Assembly (NCBI GenBank): GCA_021845865.1
Contig: JAJZVC010000004.1
Location: 31,555-95,554 of the forward strand
Length of the DNA stretch: 64,000 nucleotides
Source of the DNA: Pseudomonadota bacterium
GTDB lineage: Bacteria > Pseudomonadota > Gammaproteobacteria > Burkholderiales > UBA9220
Direction: 5' to 3'
Shown here piece by piece: positions 4,430 through 45,017 of the stretch (positions are counted from its first letter, which is position 1; every line of letters starts with the position of its first letter). Under the pieces are notes generated by a model, which worked only from the letters and a program-made list of their open reading frames with translations, was not told the DNA's origin and searched no databases. The position numbers and the translations under genes are program-made.

Positions 4430-4792
4430 GGGGGCGACCTGGCTTCGACGTGGGTTGCAAAGCAGCGCAGGGCATACCGAGGACCAGCCACCTCGTAAAT
4501 CCGCTGGAAAAAAATAGTCGCCAACGACGAAACTTACGCTCTGGCCGCTTAATCGGCCAGACTCTGCACTAGCCTGACTCCGGGCTAGGCGGGGCAACCC
4601 GCAGCAGAGTCATTTCAGGAGTCTCGCGCCGTTCAGGGTTGCTTTGACCGGCGTTAAATCCAAGGCAACTCGCCTGAATCGAGCCTGTTCGGCCGGCGCG
4701 CTTCGGGTTAAAACCCAATCGACCGGACTAAGTATGTAGAACTGTCTGTAGAGGGCTTGCGGACGCGGGTTCGATTCCCGCCGCCTCCACCA
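4430..4792 (+). ncRNA. ssrA: Transfer-messenger RNA (tmRNA), tag peptide ANDETYALAA*
   Basis: 5' GGGGGCGACCTGGCTTCGACG and 3' GGTTCGATTCCCGCCGCCTCCACCA; acceptor stem GGGGGCG/CGCCTCC pairs; tag ORF GCCAACGACGAAACTTACGCTCTGGCCGCTTAA at 4520-4552. Confidence 0.97.
4779..4792 (+). repeat. attL core (3' end of ssrA)
   Basis: CGCCGCCTCCACCA, identical to 11227-11240. Confidence 0.9.
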
Positions 4793-4814
4793 TTTACCTA
4801 TCCAACATCATCCA

Positions 4815-4842
4815 AGGCCGTCCCAAAGACGGCCTTTTTCTT
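4815..4842 (+). terminator. Terminator supplied by the element downstream of ssrA
   Basis: AGGCCGTCCCAAAGACGGCCTTTTTCTTTT. Confidence 0.8.
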
Positions 4843-4971
4843 TTATTTTACAGGCACTTCAAGCCCACAACAGTCCCATATATTCCCACTACAGCCCAAG
4901 AATTAGGGGTATTCACTTGGGGGTATCATGGTTTATCATCCAAAACAGCAGAATTATTTTGGGGGTACACC

Positions 4972-6207
4972 ATGCCGAAAAAAATCACGCCGCTCACCGA
5001 TGCAGAAGTTAAATCCTTTATAAAACAAGATGTAAAAGGCTCAAAACTATTCGATGGGGGCGGCCTGTTTCTTCACATTCCCCCAAAATCCGGTGCCCCC
5101 TCTTGGCGCGTGAAGTACCGTTTTGGGGGTAAAGAAAGAACCTTCACTCTGGGCCAGTACCCTCAAATCACCCTCGCCAACGCAAGGATTGAGTTGTTGA
5201 AGGTAAGGGAACAGGTGAAGCAAGGGCATGACCCGGTACAGCAGCGCCAGCTCACAATCAAAGGGAACCAGGAGTCAGCGGAAGCCACCTTCGCCGCTAT
5301 TGCCGCTCAATGGCTGGAAAAGAAGGCGATGGACTGGAGCGCAGGACACCACCAAAGGGCAAAACGCGCCATTGAACGGGACTTGTTTCCCCACTTGGGG
5401 AAGTTGCCTATCGCCCAGGTGGATTCATATTTACTAGCACAAGCCATTAAACCAACTGTAGATCGCGGCGTCATCGAAACCGCCGACCGCATCCTTCAAC
5501 ACACCACCGGCATTTTCAACTTCGCTAAAGGGCTTGGAATTTACAAGGGTGACAACCCAGTAGATGGTGCGCGGGAAGTGGTAATGCGGAAAAAGCCCAC
5601 TCCCAAACGGATGCCAGCTTTAACAACATGGAACAGCCTTGGAGAGATTTTACGCAAAGCGAAAGCCGCCAACATTTCCCCGGCAATCTATTTGCTTCAT
5701 CGCCTCATTGCATTTTCATCCGTCCGAATCGGCACCGCCGTCCTTGCAGAGTGGAAAGAATTTGACCTAAATTCCAGCCCCGCGATTTGGACGATCCCAC
5801 GGGAAAAAATGAAAATGAAGTCCCGCCACTCCGACCACCGCATCCCCCTTCCGGCTGTAGTTGCCCAGGAATTGCGAGAATGGAAATCTCTTGGGTTATC
5901 GCGAAAGCTGGTATTCCCTTCCCCGCAAGCCAACAAGAACGGGCAACCGATAAGTTCCGAAGGCTTGGAGAAGGCATACAGGGTAACTTTAGGTCTGGAG
6001 GGCAAGCACACCCCGCACGGCTGGCGGGCTGCCTTTTCCACCCTTGCAAGGGATGAAGGGTTTAACCGAGAAGTCGTGGAAATCGCCCTCGACCACTGCC
6101 ACGATGATGAAGTAGCAATGGCTTACGACCGTGGGGAGCGATGGGAAGAACGGGTTAAGCTGTTCCAGTGGTGGGGCGTGAAGCTACAGGAATCAGAAGC
6201 CAGTTAG
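4972..6207 (+). CDS. Tyrosine recombinase/integrase, P4 type with N-terminal DUF4102
   Basis: [44 protein letters not shown] (DUF4102 arm domain); [29 protein letters not shown] catalytic region. Confidence 0.95.
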
Positions 6208-6866
6208 GCCGCCATTTCCAGCACATTTTTAATAGTAGTGGCGTACCATTTCCCGCCCCTTGCGGTCTTTACCCCAAGGTTGTTTAGCTGGTCGGCGATA
6301 GCTCCCAAGGACATTCCCTGCCCTCGATGCTGACGGATGGTAGGCAATACCTTCTCCGCGAACTCCAAAGCCTTTTCCCGGTTGGCCTGCTGTCCTTTCT
6401 TTCGGGCTTCATCAAGATTTGTCCGATTTCCAAGCATTGCGCCTTCGGCCTTCTTCGCCGCCAATGCCGCCCTGGTGCGGCTGCTGATTAGTTTGCGCTC
6501 TTTCTCCGACAAAGCCGCGAACAGGTGAAGGATAAAGGGGTCGGTATCCACGCCCAATTCAACTACGATGAACGGAACACCACGTGCCATTAGACCAGAG
6601 ATAAAAGCCACGTCCCGGCTCAGTCTGTCCAGTTTCGCCACGATAACCGGGCACCGGGCTTTGTGTGCCTTTGCCAGAGCATCCCGCAAGCCCTCCCGAT
6701 CATCTAACCCCAGCTTGCCACTTGCCACCTCTGTTATCACCTCAACCAGCTCAAATCCCTCAGCCTCGGCAAATCTCCGCACCGCCTCAGCCTGCGCGGC
6801 CATACCCAAGCCACTGCGCCCCTGCTCCCTGGTGCTGACCCTTACATATCCGATTGCTGATTTCAT
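6204..6866 (-). CDS. Small serine recombinase (resolvase/invertase family)
   Basis: [29 protein letters not shown]...[35 protein letters not shown]-terminal recombinase HTH. Confidence 0.93.
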
Positions 6867-7129
6867 GGTGGCGGCCCCTATAACCATTAAACGTATAATC
6901 ATTATACGACCGTTTACGGTTTATACAATGTATTTTTGAGGTTACGGCGTCAAAAGAATAACCCCATTACCCCCGCCCCCAGGGGCAAGTAGCCATATAA
7001 ATGCCGTCGGAATTGTGTCCATGTGGCAAGCTATAGAACGGCATGACTCCCACACCGTTTCAGTAACTTGCAATTCCTTTAAATAAGTGATAGATGATTG
7101 TTTATATTGTGTTATTTAAGGGAGTGATG

Positions 7130-7480
7130 ATGCCAGATAAACCAATGGAATTCGATTTAGACAAGGTGCGGGCGCTGGCCGCGAAGGGATTGAACAACAA
7201 ACAAATTGCAGCCGCCATCGGATGCTCAGAGCGAACCGTTCAAAGACGTTTGGCAGAAGATGAAGATTTCGCCGCCGCTGTCGCGGAAGGTCAGGCGCTC
7301 TTATGTGTTGAAGTGGGGAATCTCTTACTCGACGCCGCCCGGAATGGTTCCGTGGATGCAATGAAGTTTATTGCAGATCGAAAAGCTGGATGGACGAAGC
7401 AAACGAAAACCGAAGTTGAAGTCTCGGCAGCGCCTAGTTTGCAAATTGTTTTTGCGCCGACTCCTGGTGTTGGAAACTAA
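7130..7480 (+). CDS. HTH protein resembling phage terminase small subunits
   Basis: VRALAAKGLNNKQIAAAIGCSERTVQRRLAEDEDFAAAVAEGQA...LLLDAARNGSVDAMKFIADRKAGWTKQTKTEVE; HTH followed by the helical region typical of TerS. Confidence 0.65.
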   Translation: MPDKPMEFDLDKVRALAAKGLNNKQIAAAIGCSERTVQRRLAEDEDFAAAVAEGQALLCVEVGNLLLDAARNGSVDAMKFIADRKAGWTKQTKTEVEVSAAPSLQIVFAPTPGVGN

Positions 7481-7508
7481 CCCCGAGTTATCTCACCGGA
7501 GAGAGCAT

Positions 7509-7781
7509 ATGTTGAATGAGTCAGATTATGTTTCTGAATACATGTTACGAGCGTCGAAAGTAGGGTGTCGCCTCCAACGAAAGGAAATAACCAAACATTT
7601 AAAACAGGCGATAAAAGATATTGTTGGTACGACTTCATGTCATCTAGTTCTCTTACGAAGGTATGCCATCTGGTATCTACGTCCATATCTCAGGGGGTTA
7701 TTCCGGGTTCTGGCATTTCGACAACCACTAAATAGTTCATCATCTGCTTCCCTTTCGGTCGAACGGCAGGAACCATTATAG
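7509..7781 (+). CDS. Possible small hypothetical protein in the element
   Basis: ATG with upstream GGAG-like sequence, in-frame portion of ORF 7371-7781 (MLNESDYVSEYMLRASKVGCRLQRKEITKHL...). Confidence 0.3.
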   Translation: MLNESDYVSEYMLRASKVGCRLQRKEITKHLKQAIKDIVGTTSCHLVLLRRYAIWYLRPYLRGLFRVLAFRQPLNSSSSASLSVERQEPL

Positions 7782-7834
7782 GCACAAAACCCACCGCTTC
7801 GGGTGGGGAAAGATTGTTATAAAATTGGGGCGGT

Positions 7835-8215
7835 CTAGTGCATGACCAGCCCCAGGAATTCCGGTAAATCTTCTGCATAACTCCAAGCGCCGCCGTAAAT
7901 AACCATGTGCCTCATGCACTGCCCCCCAGCGGCCCCACAATCCGCAACGTAAACCACTGGCAGCACCTCTTTTCCCACCCGCGCACCAAGGCCAGATGGG
8001 GCAGCAGTCAAAGTTTTATAGGCTGGCTTGAGTTGCCCTTGGTCAGCACCAGCTACTAACCGATCAATAACCGCTCGATATGCCTGGTATGCCTGGTAAG
8101 ACTTTTTACGGCTACCGGGATTTTCCTGGTTCCAGCGTTCCAGTGTTGCGAGAATGAAATTTAGATCAAGGTCATCAAAATCAACCGTTTTAGTAAAATC
8201 AATCGCATTCTCCAT
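7835..8215 (-). CDS. Hypothetical element protein
   Basis: ORF MENAIDFTKTVDFDDLDLNFILATLERWNQENPGSRKKSYQAYQAYRAVIDRL..., co-oriented and abutting the next ORF. Confidence 0.6.
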   Translation of the reverse strand: MENAIDFTKTVDFDDLDLNFILATLERWNQENPGSRKKSYQAYQAYRAVIDRLVAGADQGQLKPAYKTLTAAPSGLGARVGKEVLPVVYVADCGAAGGQCMRHMVIYGGAWSYAEDLPEFLGLVMH

Positions 8216-8412
8216 TATTTACCTCCCCGATTCCGACGTGCAAAGGCGTCATACACCCCTGTCATAATTTCCGCTTCCGCTTTCTTTTTCGCAGCCTCTA
8301 AGGCTTCTAACGTCTGACGGGCTTTCTCGATATTAGCCTCTTTCTCGGCAAGGTATTTTTCCCGTTCTTCGGTGCTATTACTGATAATTAAATTGCTTTT
8401 AAGCATATACAA
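8215..8412 (-). CDS. Small coiled-coil hypothetical protein
   Basis: MYMLKSNLIISNSTEEREKYLAEKEANIEKARQTLEALEAAKKKAEAEI...; stop overlaps start of the downstream ORF. Confidence 0.6.
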   Translation of the reverse strand: MYMLKSNLIISNSTEEREKYLAEKEANIEKARQTLEALEAAKKKAEAEIMTGVYDAFARRNRGGK

Positions 8413-8570
8413 CTCCTATAAGATGCCATCGCTGGCTGTTAAAAAATCTGTAGCAGGACAATTAGGACGATTTAGTGCGATTTCCGGTAAAGCCTTCGGG
8501 GAAATCAAAAAATATATTAATAAGCAAATGGGGTCTAATCGTCCTGATCGTCCTGGTCGCCATTCCATAC

Positions 8571-10127
8571 TCACCCACCCCTCCGAAGGCGAATCCCGCG
8601 CCGGTACTTGATTCCCCCGCGCTTCTCGTCACTGATTCCCCGTTCCGATAACTTCCGTCCGAAGGAGTTGGCGGTCATCTTGTGGAATCCATTTTCTTCG
8701 CACCAGTACCGGAAAGAGGAATAAAGGGAACTTGCCGTTATCTCGTAATCCCCGGCCTCACATTCGGCCTCTAGGAATTGGCCCACGATGTCGGAATCTG
8801 CTTGGTAGCTGGCCGTTTCCTTGCGAATCTCGTCCGGTAGGGATAACCCTTCTTGCTGGTACAACTTCCAGCCTTCAATACCCCAGTTGAGGATGCCGCT
8901 TGCTTCTTTTTGCATTTTCTCGAAGAGTTTTGCGTCTCTTTCAGCCTCTGGAATGGTTACTCCAAACAGCACCAGGGCAAGCCGCCGCCAAAACCCGTAA
9001 TCACTCCCAGAAACAAAAGGTTTGTGATTGCCAGCAACCCAGATTTTCGCCCTGGGCGTGAACTCGAAGTACTCTCTAAATAAGTAGCGGGCTACCATCC
9101 GATCACCGCCCGACAACTGCTTCAACAAGGTTTCCGCCCATTTTCGTCCGTCCGGTAGTTCGTTCGCTAAGGCAAACCTCACTCCGACCAGGGTGGCGAC
9201 GTCGTTTGGCACACCCGCATCCGCGCCCCTATCCATAAGGGTTTCTGAGGGGAGCATCCGACCATAGCCGCCCATGAGCCACAACCACAGACCCAACAGG
9301 ACGGATTTGCCGTTAGCGCCAAGCCCGTAAGCGAAGTTCACACTCTGCACCTCCGTCAGGCCTGACAAGGAATAACCCAGGCTTTTCTGGATATATCGCC
9401 GGATTGCTGGGTTCGGTTGAACCTGCTCCAGGAACTCCAGGAACCTAGGGCAGCCAGCAGCTATATCAAAGGGCGCATTTAGTGTCCTGGTGACGTAATC
9501 CCCGGCCACCATCGGCCTAACTTTTGCTGACCTAAGATCAAGCACCTCCCCGCTTTTTAATCCAACTAATAGGGGGTCGGAATCAAAAAATTCCTGGTGC
9601 ATCGTGATACCGGGGAGGGCCTTGAGTAAACGCGCAGCGCCCTCGACGAAGGACGACCTTTCGGCCCTTAGTGTCGCCGCGATCACCTTTGCCCCCTTGT
9701 CGCTTCCGTGTCGTGCCTGCTCGATTCCGCGCTCCTTCACCTCCGCCAAGACTGCTAGGATTTCCCTTGCAATCGCGCCGCCGGAATCCTTGTTCCAGAC
9801 CCTGGATGCCTCGTCAAACACCACGAAGCTATCCTGCTCTGGTACGAAGTGGATTTGCCCCTTCCGGCGGGCTGCAACGGCCTGCGCAACCTGGAGTTCA
9901 GTAACCGAATCAACCTCGGCTCTTGTGGCATTTTTGGCGGATAAATCGGGAGTTAAAATCAAGCGGATTTCGGATTCCAACATACCGAATTCGCGACCCT
10001 TTTCCACGGCCAGCCCGAGATGTTGTTCAGGGCTGTCGGATTGGGTTTTGATTACATTAAGGAGTGTCGCTAGGCTCTGGGCAGACGTAGCTTTCTCGAT
10101 AATTCCCGCAGCGGTATTGGAATTCAT
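8571..10127 (-). CDS. D5/P4-family primase C-terminal/helicase (SF3-like) replication protein
   Basis: NFAYGLGANGKSVLLGLWLWLMGGYGRMLPSETLM Walker A; RFALANELPDGRKWAETLLKQLSGGDRMVARYLFREYFEFTPRAKIWVAGNHKP motifs. Confidence 0.92.
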   Translation of the reverse strand: MNSNTAAGIIEKATSAQSLATLLNVIKTQSDSPEQHLGLAVEKGREFGMLESEIRLILTPDLSAKNATRAEVDSVTELQVAQAVAARRKGQIHFVPEQDSFVVFDEASRVWNKDSGGAIAREILAVLAEVKERGIEQARHGSDKGAKVIAATLRAERSSFVEGAARLLKALPGITMHQEFFDSDPLLVGLKSGEVLDLRSAKVRPMVAGDYVTRTLNAPFDIAAGCPRFLEFLEQVQPNPAIRRYIQKSLGYSLSGLTEVQSVNFAYGLGANGKSVLLGLWLWLMGGYGRMLPSETLMDRGADAGVPNDVATLVGVRFALANELPDGRKWAETLLKQLSGGDRMVARYLFREYFEFTPRAKIWVAGNHKPFVSGSDYGFWRRLALVLFGVTIPEAERDAKLFEKMQKEASGILNWGIEGWKLYQQEGLSLPDEIRKETASYQADSDIVGQFLEAECEAGDYEITASSLYSSFRYWCEENGFHKMTANSFGRKLSERGISDEKRGGIKYRRGIRLRRGG

Positions 10128-11354: not shown

Positions 11355-11447
11355 AATAGGGGCAGACCACTGTTTTTCCCGCTTGAAGCACCTCTGCTTG
11401 CACAGGTGCTCTTATCCCAAGAGAGAAACCGTGGTCTGTCCCCTATT
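11355..11447. repeat. REPIN/MITE-like palindromic element, copy 1
   Basis: Ends AATAGGGGCAGACCAC and GTGGTCTGTCCCCTATT are near-perfect inverted repeats; ~85% similar to copy 2. Confidence 0.85.
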
Positions 11448-13017: not shown

Positions 13018-13112
13018 AATAGGGGACAGACCACGGTTTTTTTCCGCTTGAAGCGTCTCTGCTTGTACTGGTGCTCTTGTCCCAAGAGAGAAACCATGGT
13101 CTATCCCCTATT
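13018..13112. repeat. REPIN/MITE-like palindromic element, copy 2
   Basis: AATAGGGGACAGACCACGGTTT ... GAAACCATGGTCTATCCCCTATT. Confidence 0.85.
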
Positions 13113-40029: not shown

Positions 40030-40088
40030 GGAAAACTCCGGGTCTGAAAAGCTGAGTATTATCCCTGAACGAAGCCAAATATTGCGCA

Positions 40089-40105
40089 AGTCCCAATACG
40101 GGACT
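40089..40105. promoter_or_regulatory. Palindromic candidate operator upstream of higB-like gene
   Basis: AGTCCC-AATAC-GGGACT perfect inverted repeat 12 nt before the ATG at 40117. Confidence 0.5.
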
Positions 40106-40116
40106 ACCATTACCCC

Positions 40117-40419
40117 ATGCGAATCATTGCGCTCTCGACACTCAAGGCATTCTGGGAAGAACACCCCGCCCATCTCGACGCCAAGGAACCCGCGCTGGCA
40201 TGGTATCGCCACGCACTGCGGGCGAACTGGGCCGCTCCCGCCGACATCAAGGCGGATTTCGGCTCCGCCAGCATCCTGCGGGATGGCCGAGTGGTATTCA
40301 ACCTGGCGGGCAACAAATACCGGCTGGTGGTCTGGATCAATTATGCCTACCGGGTAGCGTACATCCGCTTCATCGGCACTCACGCCCAATATGATCGGAT
40401 CGACGCGCAGACGATTTAA
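40117..40419 (+). CDS. HigB-family type II toxin (mRNA interferase-like)
   Basis: MRIIALSTLKAFWEEHPAHLDAKEPALAWYRHALRANWAAPADIKADFGSASILRDGRVVFNLAGNKYRLVVWINYAYRVAYIRFIGTHAQYDRIDAQTI. Confidence 0.94.
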   Translation: MRIIALSTLKAFWEEHPAHLDAKEPALAWYRHALRANWAAPADIKADFGSASILRDGRVVFNLAGNKYRLVVWINYAYRVAYIRFIGTHAQYDRIDAQTI

Positions 40420-40423
40420 GGAG

Positions 40424-40813
40424 ATGAACATGGACATCCGCCCCCTCAAGACCGAGGCCGACTACCAAGCCGCCCTGCGGGAAATCGAAACCCTCATGCA
40501 CGCCGCAGCGGACACCCCCGAAGGCGACCGCCTGGACGTGCTGGCCACCCTGGTCGAAGCCTATGAATCCCGGCATTACCCCCTGGACCTTCCCGACCCG
40601 GTGGAAGCCATCAAATTCGCCATGGAGCAGAAAGGGCTGTCGGTGAAAGACCTGGAACCGATGATCGGCCGCACCAACCGGGTCTATGAAATCCTCAACC
40701 ACAAACGGCCCCTGACCCTGAAAATGATCTGGCGGCTGCACAAGGGACTGGGCATTCCGGCGGAGAGCCTGATTCGGCAAGAAGAAGACCGCCCCACGCC
40801 CCAAGCAGCCTGA
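40424..40813 (+). CDS. HigA-like XRE antitoxin
   Basis: EAIKFAMEQKGLSVKDLEPMIGRTNRVYEILNHKRPLTLKMIWRLHKGLGIPAESLI HTH; starts 4 nt after the toxin stop. Confidence 0.94.
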   Translation: MNMDIRPLKTEADYQAALREIETLMHAAADTPEGDRLDVLATLVEAYESRHYPLDLPDPVEAIKFAMEQKGLSVKDLEPMIGRTNRVYEILNHKRPLTLKMIWRLHKGLGIPAESLIRQEEDRPTPQAA

Positions 40814-40823
40814 TTCCAGCCCC

Positions 40824-43800
40824 ATGGCAAAACCCCATCACCACTGGCCGCGCTTCTGGGTTCCCCTGGGCAAGACCATTCCACTCGATGATCAAGGGTT
40901 TTTGCTTGACCCTGAAAGCGAATACGCCCATTTCTACTATGCCGGTTACCGGGCGCGCGCCCTGGCGCAACTGAACGAATTCCCGGTAACCATCCTGCTA
41001 GGAGAACCCGGCGTAGGGAAATCCACGACATTGGAGGAGGAGGCCTCCCGCCTCCGCGCCGCTGGCGAAGCATGCCTGTATCGGGAACTGAACCAGTACC
41101 ACAGCGATAGCCGGCTTATTGGCGATATTTTCGATTCGGAAGAAATCCAAGCATGGAAGCAAGGCAGCCACCCCTTGACGCTCCTGTTGGATAGTCTCGA
41201 CGAATGCAGTTTAACCATCCCAGCCGCTGCCAGAATTCTGCTCAACCAGTTGAAAAAGCTGCCCACGGAACGCCTGGCCTTGCGCCTGACCTGCCGAACG
41301 GCAGACTGGCCGGAATCGTTCACCGGCGAACTCCGGGCACTTTGGCGTGGCGAAAACAGCGAGGCACCCGACCCCGTAGGCATATTCGAGTTGGCCCCCC
41401 TGCGATCGGAAGACATCCGGCGAGCTGCCCAGGACCGTGGACTGGATGCCGCTGCCTTCCTGAAGGAAATCCGAAATAAGGAAATCCAACCCCTCGCCAG
41501 CCATCCCAATACCCTCAACATGCTGCTCGGCCTTTCCGGCCGGCCCGACGGGCTCCCCAGGCAACGCGCGGAACTCTATCGCCTTGGCTGCGAAACCCTG
41601 GCCGACGAAAGCAGCCCTTTTCGCCAAGAGTCCCGCTACACGGGAAAACTCGCCGCCCGTCAGCGCATGGCCATTGCGGCCCGCATCGCCGCCCAAATGG
41701 TATTCGGCCACCGTTCGGCCATTTGGCGTGGCAACACCTGGGAGGCCGAAACAGCCGACCTGATCGAGAGCGAAATTACCGGTGACGTGGAACAAGCCGA
41801 CGGCTTGGATTTTCCCGTTGATGCACCCGCGTTGCGGGAAACCCTCGAATGCGCCTTGTTTTCGGGACGAGGCGAAAAAAGAATCGGCTTTTCCCACCAG
41901 TCCTATGCCGAATTCCTGGCCGCTTGGCATCTGCATTCCCATAGCCTCGGCACCCAACGCGCCCTCGCGCTCCTTCTCCACCCCGACGACGGACGCGTTC
42001 CCCCACAACACGCCGAAACAGCCATCTGGCTGGCCGCGCTCGATAGAACCGTCTTCAGCGCCCTGGTGGAAACCGAACCCCTGCTTTTGCTGCGCACCGA
42101 TCTATCGGACACCTCCGACAACCAGAAAACCGAACTGACCCAGGCGCTGCTCGGCGCCTTCGCCAATCGAACCGAATTCGACATGGATTGGGGGCTGCGT
42201 CAGCACTACCGCAAGCTGGCCCACCCCGGCCTGATGGCGCAGCTCCGCCCCCTTATCGCGGACAGCAACGCAGCCCACGCCGCCCGCCGCGCGGCCATGG
42301 ACATCGCCTCGGCCTGCAATGTCCACGAACTGGCGGAAGACCTCATTGTCCTGGCCCTTGACCAGGAAGAAGAGTACCAACAGCGGCTGAACGCCGCCTA
42401 TGCCGCCACCGAGCTGGCGAGTGAGCAACAGCTTGCCCGCCTACGCCCCCTCGCTCTGGGCGAGGCCGGCGACGATCCGGAAGACCAGCTCAAGGCCGTC
42501 GTCGTTCCAGCGCTCTGGCCGAAGCAGCTCTCCACGCAGGAAATTTTCGACTTGCTGTCGCAAACACGGAACGCCCGATGCCTGGGCAAGTTTCGTTATT
42601 TGCCTGAGAAATTTGCGCCCCGATTCACCGACAACGATCTCATCATTGCCCTTCATTGGACCGCCGAAATCGGCGACACCCACGACGATTACGAAGCACA
42701 GCTCCACAAGGACGCCATCATGGCCGAGGCCTGGAAGAGACTTGATGCCCCCGACGTGCGGAGCGCATTCGTCGAGACGGCCTGGGCCTGCCTGGACCGC
42801 CACGAGCGCGTGTTCAACCGGCGCGGGGAACGTGACAAAGACTGGCTGGAGCAGGACGCCCCTAAAAGGCGGCAAGCCGCCTTGGCATTGCTGGAGGGCC
42901 ATTCCGCCACCCATAACACGCGCGACCCAATAAGCCTGATTGTCGGCGAAAATGCTTTCATCCTCCCCCAGGACAACCACTGGCTCCTGGAGCACTACCA
43001 GGCAAGCACCGACCCGGCCCTCCGTGCCAACCTAGCCAAGTGCATCGATTTTTTCGTCCGCTGGGACGCGGAAACGGCGTGGCTGAATACCGTGATCGAC
43101 GCCGCCTGCGTGGATGCCACCCATAGCGCATCCCCTTTGGCGGATACTGTTGCGCCCTGGATGGAACCCATTTGGTTTGGTTCGGATACTGAGCGCACGC
43201 TTAAAGAGCGCGACGCAAAACAGAAGAGGTGGCAACAAAGACACCCCCTCCCCCTAGCCCCTCCCCCGCCAGCACGGGTCGAACAGGCCTTAGAAGAATC
43301 CGAGGCCGGCAAAACCGATGCCTGGATGCGCCTATGGCAGGAACTCTCCCTGCCGGACGACGCGACCTACTACGGGTGGCGCTTCGATGCCGTCACGAAA
43401 TTTCCCGGCTGGCTACGCGCAAACCACGCCGAGCGGGAACGCATCCTGCGTTGCGCCGAAGCGTGGCTGACGCACGAAACTCTCGCCCAAGAAGAAATTT
43501 TCCGCACCGACAACTCCACTGGCTATCAGCATACCTCGTCCTATCTAGCACTTCGGCTGCTGGCCGACGAGGCCTCCGCTGTCCTGGCGGCGGCGCCAGC
43601 GGAGAAATGGCGCCATTGGGCCGAGATCATTGTCGCCTTTCCCTTCGACCAAGACAGCGCGGAGCGGAACAATATCCTCAAGCTGGCTTATGCCATGGCG
43701 CCCGACGCCGTGCTCACTACCTTCCGGCGCCTGATCGGCCAGGAAATCGACGCCCACCAATCGCCATCCCGGGCAAGGGAGTTGGCGGCCATCTGGGCAG

Positions 43801-45017
43801 AACCGGTTGCCGCTCTCCTCCGCGAGTTTCTAGCACAGCCAGGCCTGACGCCGGACCAGACCAGCGTCTGGCTAGAAATGCTCCTCGAACACGGCGACGA
43901 AACCGCCTTCGATTTCGCCCGCGACATCGTTGCTAAGCGCCCGGCCATGGGACCGCCCAACCAGCCCCTGGCCCTGGCCGCCGCCAGGAAACTGCTGGCC
44001 CATCAGACGCAAAAAGCCTGGCCGTTCGTGTGGGAGGCCATGCTAACGGATGCCGGCTTTGGCGAGCGCCTGATGCTTGAACTTGCCCACCATGGAAGCC
44101 GAGAAGGAGGCATCTTGGTAGCCCTCGCCGAACCGCAAGTCACCGACCTGTATTTCTGGCTTGAGGAGCATTTTCCGCCACAGGAGGATGCTTATTATCC
44201 ATCTGGACAAGCTCATTCCGTGACGCCGCGCGACACGGTGGCACGCATACGGGACAATTGCCCCGCTCATTTATCCCGCCGGGGCACCCAACCCGCCATC
44301 GACGCGCTGGATTCGATTTGCGCCCGGCAGCCGGACCGGGATTGGCTGAAACATCTGCTGAACGAGGCCAAGCAGGCTTACCGCAAGGCCACCTTGTCCG
44401 CCCTCTCCCCCGCCGAGCTTATCGCTTACACCCACCGCAAGGACGCGCGACTGGCCCGCAGCAGTGCCGAACTCATGGCGGCCGTGCTGGTTTCCTTGCA
44501 GCGCTTGCAACAGAAACTGCACGGTCAAACGCCCCTCGCCCCTTTTCTGTGGGACTTGGCCGACAACGGCAAGTCTGGGCGTCCCAAAAGCGAGGACCGC
44601 TTGTCGGATTTCGTCAAACACCACCTCGAATGCGACCTGCCAACCTTCGTCATCGACCGGGAAGTCCAGATACAAAACCTCAAGGAACATGGCATCGGCG
44701 AGCGCACCGACTTGAAGATAGAAGCCAAGGACGCAGAAGGGCGATCCCTCTCGGTCATCATCGAAAGCAAGGGTTGTTGGAACAAGGAACTCATGACCGC
44801 CATGGAAAGCCAGCTTGCCGAGCGTTACTTGAAACTGGCTGCGGAGTCTTGTGGAATTTACCTCGTCGGTTGGTTCCGTTGCGAACGCTTGGCCGATAAG
44901 TATTGTGTTTTTCCTGGCACGAAAGAAGAACTGTCGACCACCCTCAATGGGCAAGCCCAAGAACTTTCAAAGGGCAGGGGAAATTTGTCGGCCTTCGTCC
45001 TGGATGCGTCCTATTGA
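40824..45017 (+). CDS. 1397-aa NACHT/STAND-like NTPase with alpha-helical repeats and C-terminal PD-(D/E)XK-like nuclease
   Basis: Walker A TILLGEPGVGKSTTLEEEA (~41000), Walker B LTLLLDSLDECSL (~41180-41210), HEAT-like middle; C-terminal GERTDLKIEAKDAEGRSLSVIIESKGCWNKEL (~44697-44790) fits D-Xn-(E)xK. Confidence 0.85.
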   Translation: MAKPHHHWPRFWVPLGKTIPLDDQGFLLDPESEYAHFYYAGYRARALAQLNEFPVTILLGEPGVGKSTTLEEEASRLRAAGEACLYRELNQYHSDSRLIGDIFDSEEIQAWKQGSHPLTLLLDSLDECSLTIPAAARILLNQLKKLPTERLALRLTCRTADWPESFTGELRALWRGENSEAPDPVGIFELAPLRSEDIRRAAQDRGLDAAAFLKEIRNKEIQPLASHPNTLNMLLGLSGRPDGLPRQRAELYRLGCETLADESSPFRQESRYTGKLAARQRMAIAARIAAQMVFGHRSAIWRGNTWEAETADLIESEITGDVEQADGLDFPVDAPALRETLECALFSGRGEKRIGFSHQSYAEFLAAWHLHSHSLGTQRALALLLHPDDGRVPPQHAETAIWLAALDRTVFSALVETEPLLLLRTDLSDTSDNQKTELTQALLGAFANRTEFDMDWGLRQHYRKLAHPGLMAQLRPLIADSNAAHAARRAAMDIASACNVHELAEDLIVLALDQEEEYQQRLNAAYAATELASEQQLARLRPLALGEAGDDPEDQLKAVVVPALWPKQLSTQEIFDLLSQTRNARCLGKFRYLPEKFAPRFTDNDLIIALHWTAEIGDTHDDYEAQLHKDAIMAEAWKRLDAPDVRSAFVETAWACLDRHERVFNRRGERDKDWLEQDAPKRRQAALALLEGHSATHNTRDPISLIVGENAFILPQDNHWLLEHYQASTDPALRANLAKCIDFFVRWDAETAWLNTVIDAACVDATHSASPLADTVAPWMEPIWFGSDTERTLKERDAKQKRWQQRHPLPLAPPPPARVEQALEESEAGKTDAWMRLWQELSLPDDATYYGWRFDAVTKFPGWLRANHAERERILRCAEAWLTHETLAQEEIFRTDNSTGYQHTSSYLALRLLADEASAVLAAAPAEKWRHWAEIIVAFPFDQDSAERNNILKLAYAMAPDAVLTTFRRLIGQEIDAHQSPSRARELAAIWAEPVAALLREFLAQPGLTPDQTSVWLEMLLEHGDETAFDFARDIVAKRPAMGPPNQPLALAAARKLLAHQTQKAWPFVWEAMLTDAGFGERLMLELAHHGSREGGILVALAEPQVTDLYFWLEEHFPPQEDAYYPSGQAHSVTPRDTVARIRDNCPAHLSRRGTQPAIDALDSICARQPDRDWLKHLLNEAKQAYRKATLSALSPAELIAYTHRKDARLARSSAELMAAVLVSLQRLQQKLHGQTPLAPFLWDLADNGKSGRPKSEDRLSDFVKHHLECDLPTFVIDREVQIQNLKEHGIGERTDLKIEAKDAEGRSLSVIIESKGCWNKELMTAMESQLAERYLKLAAESCGIYLVGWFRCERLADKYCVFPGTKEELSTTLNGQAQELSKGRGNLSAFVLDASY

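Follow-up and report, generated by a model that had tools for sequence, protein, structure and literature searches.

The closest described relatives of the locus analysed here are NACHT-type STAND NTPases on the one side and HigBA toxin–antitoxin (TA) modules on the other. The locus is a three-gene operon on the forward strand of a 64,000-nucleotide stretch of contig JAJZVC010000004.1 from a Pseudomonadota bacterium (hereafter the window, meaning the whole stretch of DNA that was analysed). Its NTPase relatives comprise the NCBIfam families EruA (NF058535, recently named as a NACHT domain-containing antiphage protein, equivalog cut-off 1000 bits) and HyoA (NF058534, cut-off 1200 bits) as well as the Avs/bNACHT antiphage sensors, of which bNACHT25 carries a PD-(D/E)XK effector positioned N-terminally (PMC12169576). 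Its TA relatives comprise the type II HigBA modules of known structure (5ycl, 5ifg) and PD-lambda-2, a HigB/HigA-like three-gene defence system whose third gene is a relative of the P4 antitoxin (PMC9519451). According to our analysis, the locus encodes HigB, HigA and a NACHT STAND NTPase with a very probable C-terminal nuclease domain. The reading that we favour, and consider reasonably probable, is that of a self-sufficient EruA-like NACHT STAND protein whose gene is transcribed downstream of an autonomous, autorepressed HigBA cassette. An earlier sequence-only reading had proposed a TA-gated or TA-assisted abortive-infection nuclease and was half right: the NACHT protein with its probable C-terminal nuclease lies behind HigBA, but is probably not gated by it. 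The three genes are as follows:

40117..40419, + strand: higB, RelE-like toxin, 100 aa
40430..40813 (alternative start 40424), + strand: higA, Xre-type helix-turn-helix (HTH) antitoxin
40824..45017, + strand: EruA-like NACHT STAND NTPase with C-terminal nuclease-type domain, 1397 aa

The operon layout was verified as first described, with all three open reading frames (ORFs) on the + strand, higB at 40117-40419, higA ending at 40813, the NTPase gene at 40824-45017 and a 10-nt gap between the latter two. Only the start of higA was corrected. The Shine-Dalgarno sequence GGAG (40420-40423) abuts the ATG at 40424 and is well spaced for the ATG at 40430, and the related genome G003 retains the second ATG but has ATA in place of the codon at 40424, so that 40430 is probably the start. 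The gap between higB and higA is then 10 nt instead of 4 nt. Neither the gene layout nor the motifs and matches described below are due to chance.

The NACHT protein and its C-terminal domain

The large protein is divided as follows:

40824..42143, + strand: NACHT module without N-terminal effector domain, residues 1-440
41001..41027, + strand: Walker A, GEPGVGKST, residues 60-68
41181..41204, + strand: Walker B, LLLDSLDE, residues 120-127
41889..41924, + strand: NACHT winged-helix motif, FSHQSYAEFLAA, residues 356-367
42144..44363, + strand: middle region, probable sensor, residues 441-1180
44364..45014, + strand: PD-(D/E)XK-type domain, residues 1181-1397

The protein is a NACHT STAND NTPase, in agreement with the sequence-only reading, as it combines a P-loop and the acidic pair of Walker B with a NACHT fold. 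It is a large switch powered by ATP and a bacterial cousin of human inflammation sensors. The AlphaFold2 model of residues 1-440 (pLDDT 87) has NLRC4 (1.1e-8), NLRP3 (4.3e-8) and Avs4 (8dgf, 2.9e-7) as its best PDB folds, and both Walker motifs are conserved family-wide, with G60, E61, P62, G63, G65 and K66 invariant in 23 homologues and L122, D123, D126 and E127 likewise invariant. The segment FSHQSYAEFLAA conforms to the winged-helix pattern FxHxxxxEF with invariant H358, E363 and A366, and a weak sequence match to NLRP3 falls on this motif (profile 318-367). The Pfam NACHT model gave only E 0.11 and falls short of the cut-off. Because only ~50 residues lie ahead of the P-loop, the protein is without an N-terminal effector. 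The middle region is the fastest-evolving part, being 51% identical to the nearest homologue, L089, compared with 69% for the NACHT module and 74% for the nuclease domain. Since such divergence is expected of a sensor, it is probably the sensor, although the divergence was measured in this single close pair, which weakens it as a basis.

The C-terminal domain is very probably a PD-(D/E)XK nuclease, judged by its motif and its predicted topology. In an alignment of 28 homologues reaching down to 24% identity, E1257, E1280, D1296, E1314, K1316, Q1330 and Y1335 are invariant, and the conserved E, D, ExK (E1314-x-K1316) and Q of PD-(D/E)XK nucleases are all present. The motif ERTDLKI...VIIESKGCWNKEL, at about residues 1293-1323, is conserved throughout the family. 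In the model of the domain (pLDDT 84.8) the elements follow the order alpha-beta-beta-beta-alpha-beta, the D opening one core strand, the ExK lying in the next strand and the Q in the following helix. Restriction enzymes (EcoO109I, BamHI, BsaWI, MspJI and OkrAI) were among the top PDB folds at E 0.01-0.1, and viral models annotated as PD-(D/E)XK match the domain at E 0.002-0.01. Several results weigh against a nuclease: the PDB fold search of the domain returned nothing under E 1e-3, the Pfam search gave no family match and the PDB sequence search no meaningful one. The first two of these would suit a non-catalytic C-terminus, either a degenerate fold or a nucleic-acid binder, with killing by another route. 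The invariance of catalytic-type residues across such diverse homologues and the fitting topology speak against this alternative, and we regard it as very improbable. The order NTPase-repeats-nuclease, which had been described as apparently inverted, is indeed present but is common to the whole EruA-like family rather than a peculiarity of the locus.

Comparison with the named families places the protein beside EruA. It matches the EruA model with 257 bits (4.4e-76) from residue 48 to 1396, corresponding to model positions 19-1318 of 1318, and since the cut-off is 1000 bits it is, by the curated rule, a relative and not a member of EruA; its own relatives score similarly. Homology to EruA is thus end-to-end, and L031, an EruA member over the cut-off, has the same C-terminal nuclease motif, whereas the NTPase lies elsewhere in the tree and its HigBA leader is absent from EruA members. 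HyoA is matched by the NACHT part and beyond (2.7e-52 over residues 52-604), but the best stretch spans under half of the HyoA model and reaches 178 bits compared with the required 1200. With Avs/bNACHT proteins the NTPase shares the STAND/NACHT fold, but unlike bNACHT25 it carries its nuclease at the C-terminus. In a midpoint-rooted tree of 61 homologues it pairs with L089, from a gammaproteobacterial metagenome-assembled genome (59-60% identity, support 100), and EruA members are placed apart. The clade around it includes Pseudomonadota, Cyanobacteriota, Bacillota, Bacteroidota, Planctomycetota and an ANME-2 archaeon. It represents a widespread NACHT clade with a probable nuclease at the C-terminus rather than the N-terminus, and this clade offers a testable case of how a NACHT switch acts on an effector located beyond the sensor repeats. 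A weak point of the antiphage role is that it comes from the NCBIfam name; the literature searched yielded no paper on the antiphage activity of EruA or HyoA, and the name EruA is also borne by an unrelated E. coli regulator.

The HigBA module and its probable promoter

The two small proteins were correctly identified by the sequence-only reading. HigB matches PF09907 (4.8e-29), the nearest solved relatives of both proteins are 5ycl and 5ifg, and the pair shows the HigB toxin fold, the Xre-type HigA and the toxin-first gene order of type II HigBA modules. It differs from these in that a defence-type gene follows at 10 nt. The HigB and HigA regions also match the PADLOC models PD-Lambda-2_A and PD-Lambda-2_B, the latter with positions 1-124 of 402 (1.3e-44), which is its N-terminal part only. 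In contrast to PD-lambda-2, however, HigA is without the C-terminal peptidase and the third gene encodes a NACHT NTPase, not a P4-antitoxin relative; the locus thus lacks the combination of HigA-peptidase fusion and third component that characterizes that system.

According to sequence comparison, HigBA is an ordinary autonomous module. Its subfamily is mostly found without a STAND gene, and stand-alone copies exist. G003 retains the order cupin-higB-higA, the 10-nt gap and an intact HigBA, directly followed by no more than a remnant of the NTPase gene (L030:5062-5319), which consists of the start codon and ~33 codons (residues about 131-163); G003 is a 600-contig draft, and an assembly fault may account for the remnant. 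The ratio of nonsynonymous to synonymous substitution (dN/dS) between the window and G003 is ~0.04 for higB and ~0.10 for higA, and with the NTPase gene in this state HigBA is therefore under purifying selection by itself.

HigB and HigA were sought within 3 kb of 61 distinct NTPase homologue loci among the matches listed, each with at least 600 nt of upstream sequence. Only two of these loci, the window and G003, have HigBA, and the other 59 do not, so that HigBA does not regularly adjoin the NTPase. The closest full-length homologue, L089 (59%), is a lone NTPase gene without HigBA behind an ABC transporter gene. On the survey of these 61 loci and on L089 we rejected TA gating as a conserved partnership, and the proposal that HigBA gates or assists the NTPase is not upheld; the sequence-only reading had itself named homologues mostly without HigBA as the finding that would speak against it. 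In its full form this proposal amounts to one obligate three-gene system, in which the NTPase is under direct physical control of HigA or HigB, or itself sets off the release of HigB. It could draw on the compact operon, on the same arrangement in the window genome and G003 and on the precedent of PD-lambda-2 (PMC9519451), but the 59 loci without HigBA, the persistence of HigBA without the NTPase under purifying selection and the missing peptidase domain of PD-lambda-2_B make it quite improbable.

Two other homologue loci have different genes just upstream, L091:4851-5897 a Fic-domain gene (91 nt) and L114:5215-5844 an Xre-type HTH gene (69 nt).

Upstream of higB, the following sites were found:

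40082..40110, + strand: promoter-like site, -35 TTGCGC (40082-40087), 17-nt spacer with dyad, -10 TACCAT (40105-40110)
40089..40105, + strand: probable HigA operator, dyad AGTCCC-AATAC-GGGACT

The pattern AGTCCC-N5-GGGACT has its only match within the window at this position, with 0.01 expected. Its core, TCCC-N5-GGGA, stands ahead of higB in 45 of 50 distinct relatives, compared with 0.065 by shuffle, mostly at 13-14 nt from the higB ATG. In 23 of the 50 upstream regions the dyad occupies the spacer, 16-19 nt long, that separates TTGnnn from TAnnnT. The natural reading is that HigA autorepresses a single promoter via this predicted operator. Because the placement of the -10 box implies a start close to the ATG, transcription may begin near the higB ATG and yield a higB mRNA with almost no leader. 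The 10-nt gap, the sole dyad of the window before higB and the lack of a promoter-like site in the consensus scan point to a shared transcript. On the other side, the -10 box TACCAT is degenerate and no clear Shine-Dalgarno sequence precedes the NTPase gene. The strict consensus scan, which is of low sensitivity, found no site in the 40082-40110 region and none before the NTPase gene.

The two units might also be adjacent only, sharing an island without a functional link, with the NACHT gene expressed mainly from a promoter of its own inside higA or with inconsequential read-through from higBA. In line with this, HigBA of the same subfamily also precedes housekeeping-like genes on the same strand by 10-38 nt (L166, L182 and L188, read from the sequence), the NTPase gene at the nearest homologue locus stands alone, and the GC content (0.58-0.64 vs 0.65-0.70 in the flanks) hints that the segment was acquired. 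The retention of the 10-nt gap in G003 despite decay argues against mere adjacency, as does the outcome of the promoter scan before the NTPase gene within its low sensitivity. We consider this alternative possible, though on the unlikely side.

We rejected a phage or a plasmid as the source of the operon: the NTPase has no match in 50,697 phage records, IMG/VR gave only short weak matches, and near-identical plasmid DNA was not found. Comparison with an empty site in the same-genus genome G001 was uninformative, since the cupin gene sits there in another neighbourhood.

HigBA beside other genes and a proposed mode of action

Same-subfamily HigBA modules also stand tightly before other genes. 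They precede TOTE primase-helicase genes on Acinetobacter plasmids (L161/L193, gap 25), in G261 (L197, gap -8) and in G347 (L198, gap 3), a GmrSD gene in G297 (L199, gap 16) and, on the same strand, ISL3 transposase genes. A fixed partnership with TOTE was ruled out, as only 2 of ~27 TOTE genes in a class sample follow HigBA. The module therefore resembles a portable cassette that is tied to no particular partner.

L198 has its TOTE gene broken into two ORFs behind an intact HigBA, which echoes the NTPase remnant in G003. Elsewhere (L206, L208, L214 and L227), short ORFs that by eye resemble RelE/ParE-type or PIN toxins stand ahead of TOTE genes on the same strand. On the Picosynechococcus plasmid pAQ6 (L196) the neighbourhood is defence-like, HigBA lying between the gene for a DUF1156 protein and XisH/XisI, PIN and helicase genes.

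Tentatively, HigBA with its dyad might act as a portable leader cassette that has repeatedly captured large stand-alone defence proteins (EruA-like NACHT nuclease, TOTE, GmrSD) under HigA autorepression. Loss of HigA in phage-induced host shut-off would then free HigB and at the same time raise the defence protein. This broader idea seems to us rather doubtful; if true, it would amount to a two-tier response assembled from exchangeable modules. The HigBA leader in any case poses a testable question, namely whether a TA autorepressor can set how strongly an unrelated defence gene is expressed.

For the self-sufficient NACHT protein behind an autorepressed HigBA, we posit the following mode of action. 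The NTPase likely kills phage-infected cells. At rest it would be an inactive NACHT monomer, and a phage product bound by the fast-evolving middle region would act as trigger. The NACHT module would then oligomerise and gather the C-terminal nuclease domains, which would cut DNA and so abort the infection. HigBA would not be the switch in this scheme; by autorepressing the shared promoter it would keep the basal level of a dangerous nuclease low. Loss of HigA during host shut-off may raise NTPase expression, and HigBA addiction may slow the loss of the segment.

Other features of the window

A 75-nt direct repeat occurs at 11373-11447 and 13038-13112 (89% identical, 1665 nt apart) and encloses two ORFs for which neither Pfam nor PADLOC gave a match. 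The region 4430-10127 is likely an integrative element or phage satellite, as read from its genes: an integrase gene (4972-6207) adjoins the tmRNA gene (4430-4792) and is accompanied by a resolvase gene (6204-6902) and a D5-type helicase gene (8571-10127).

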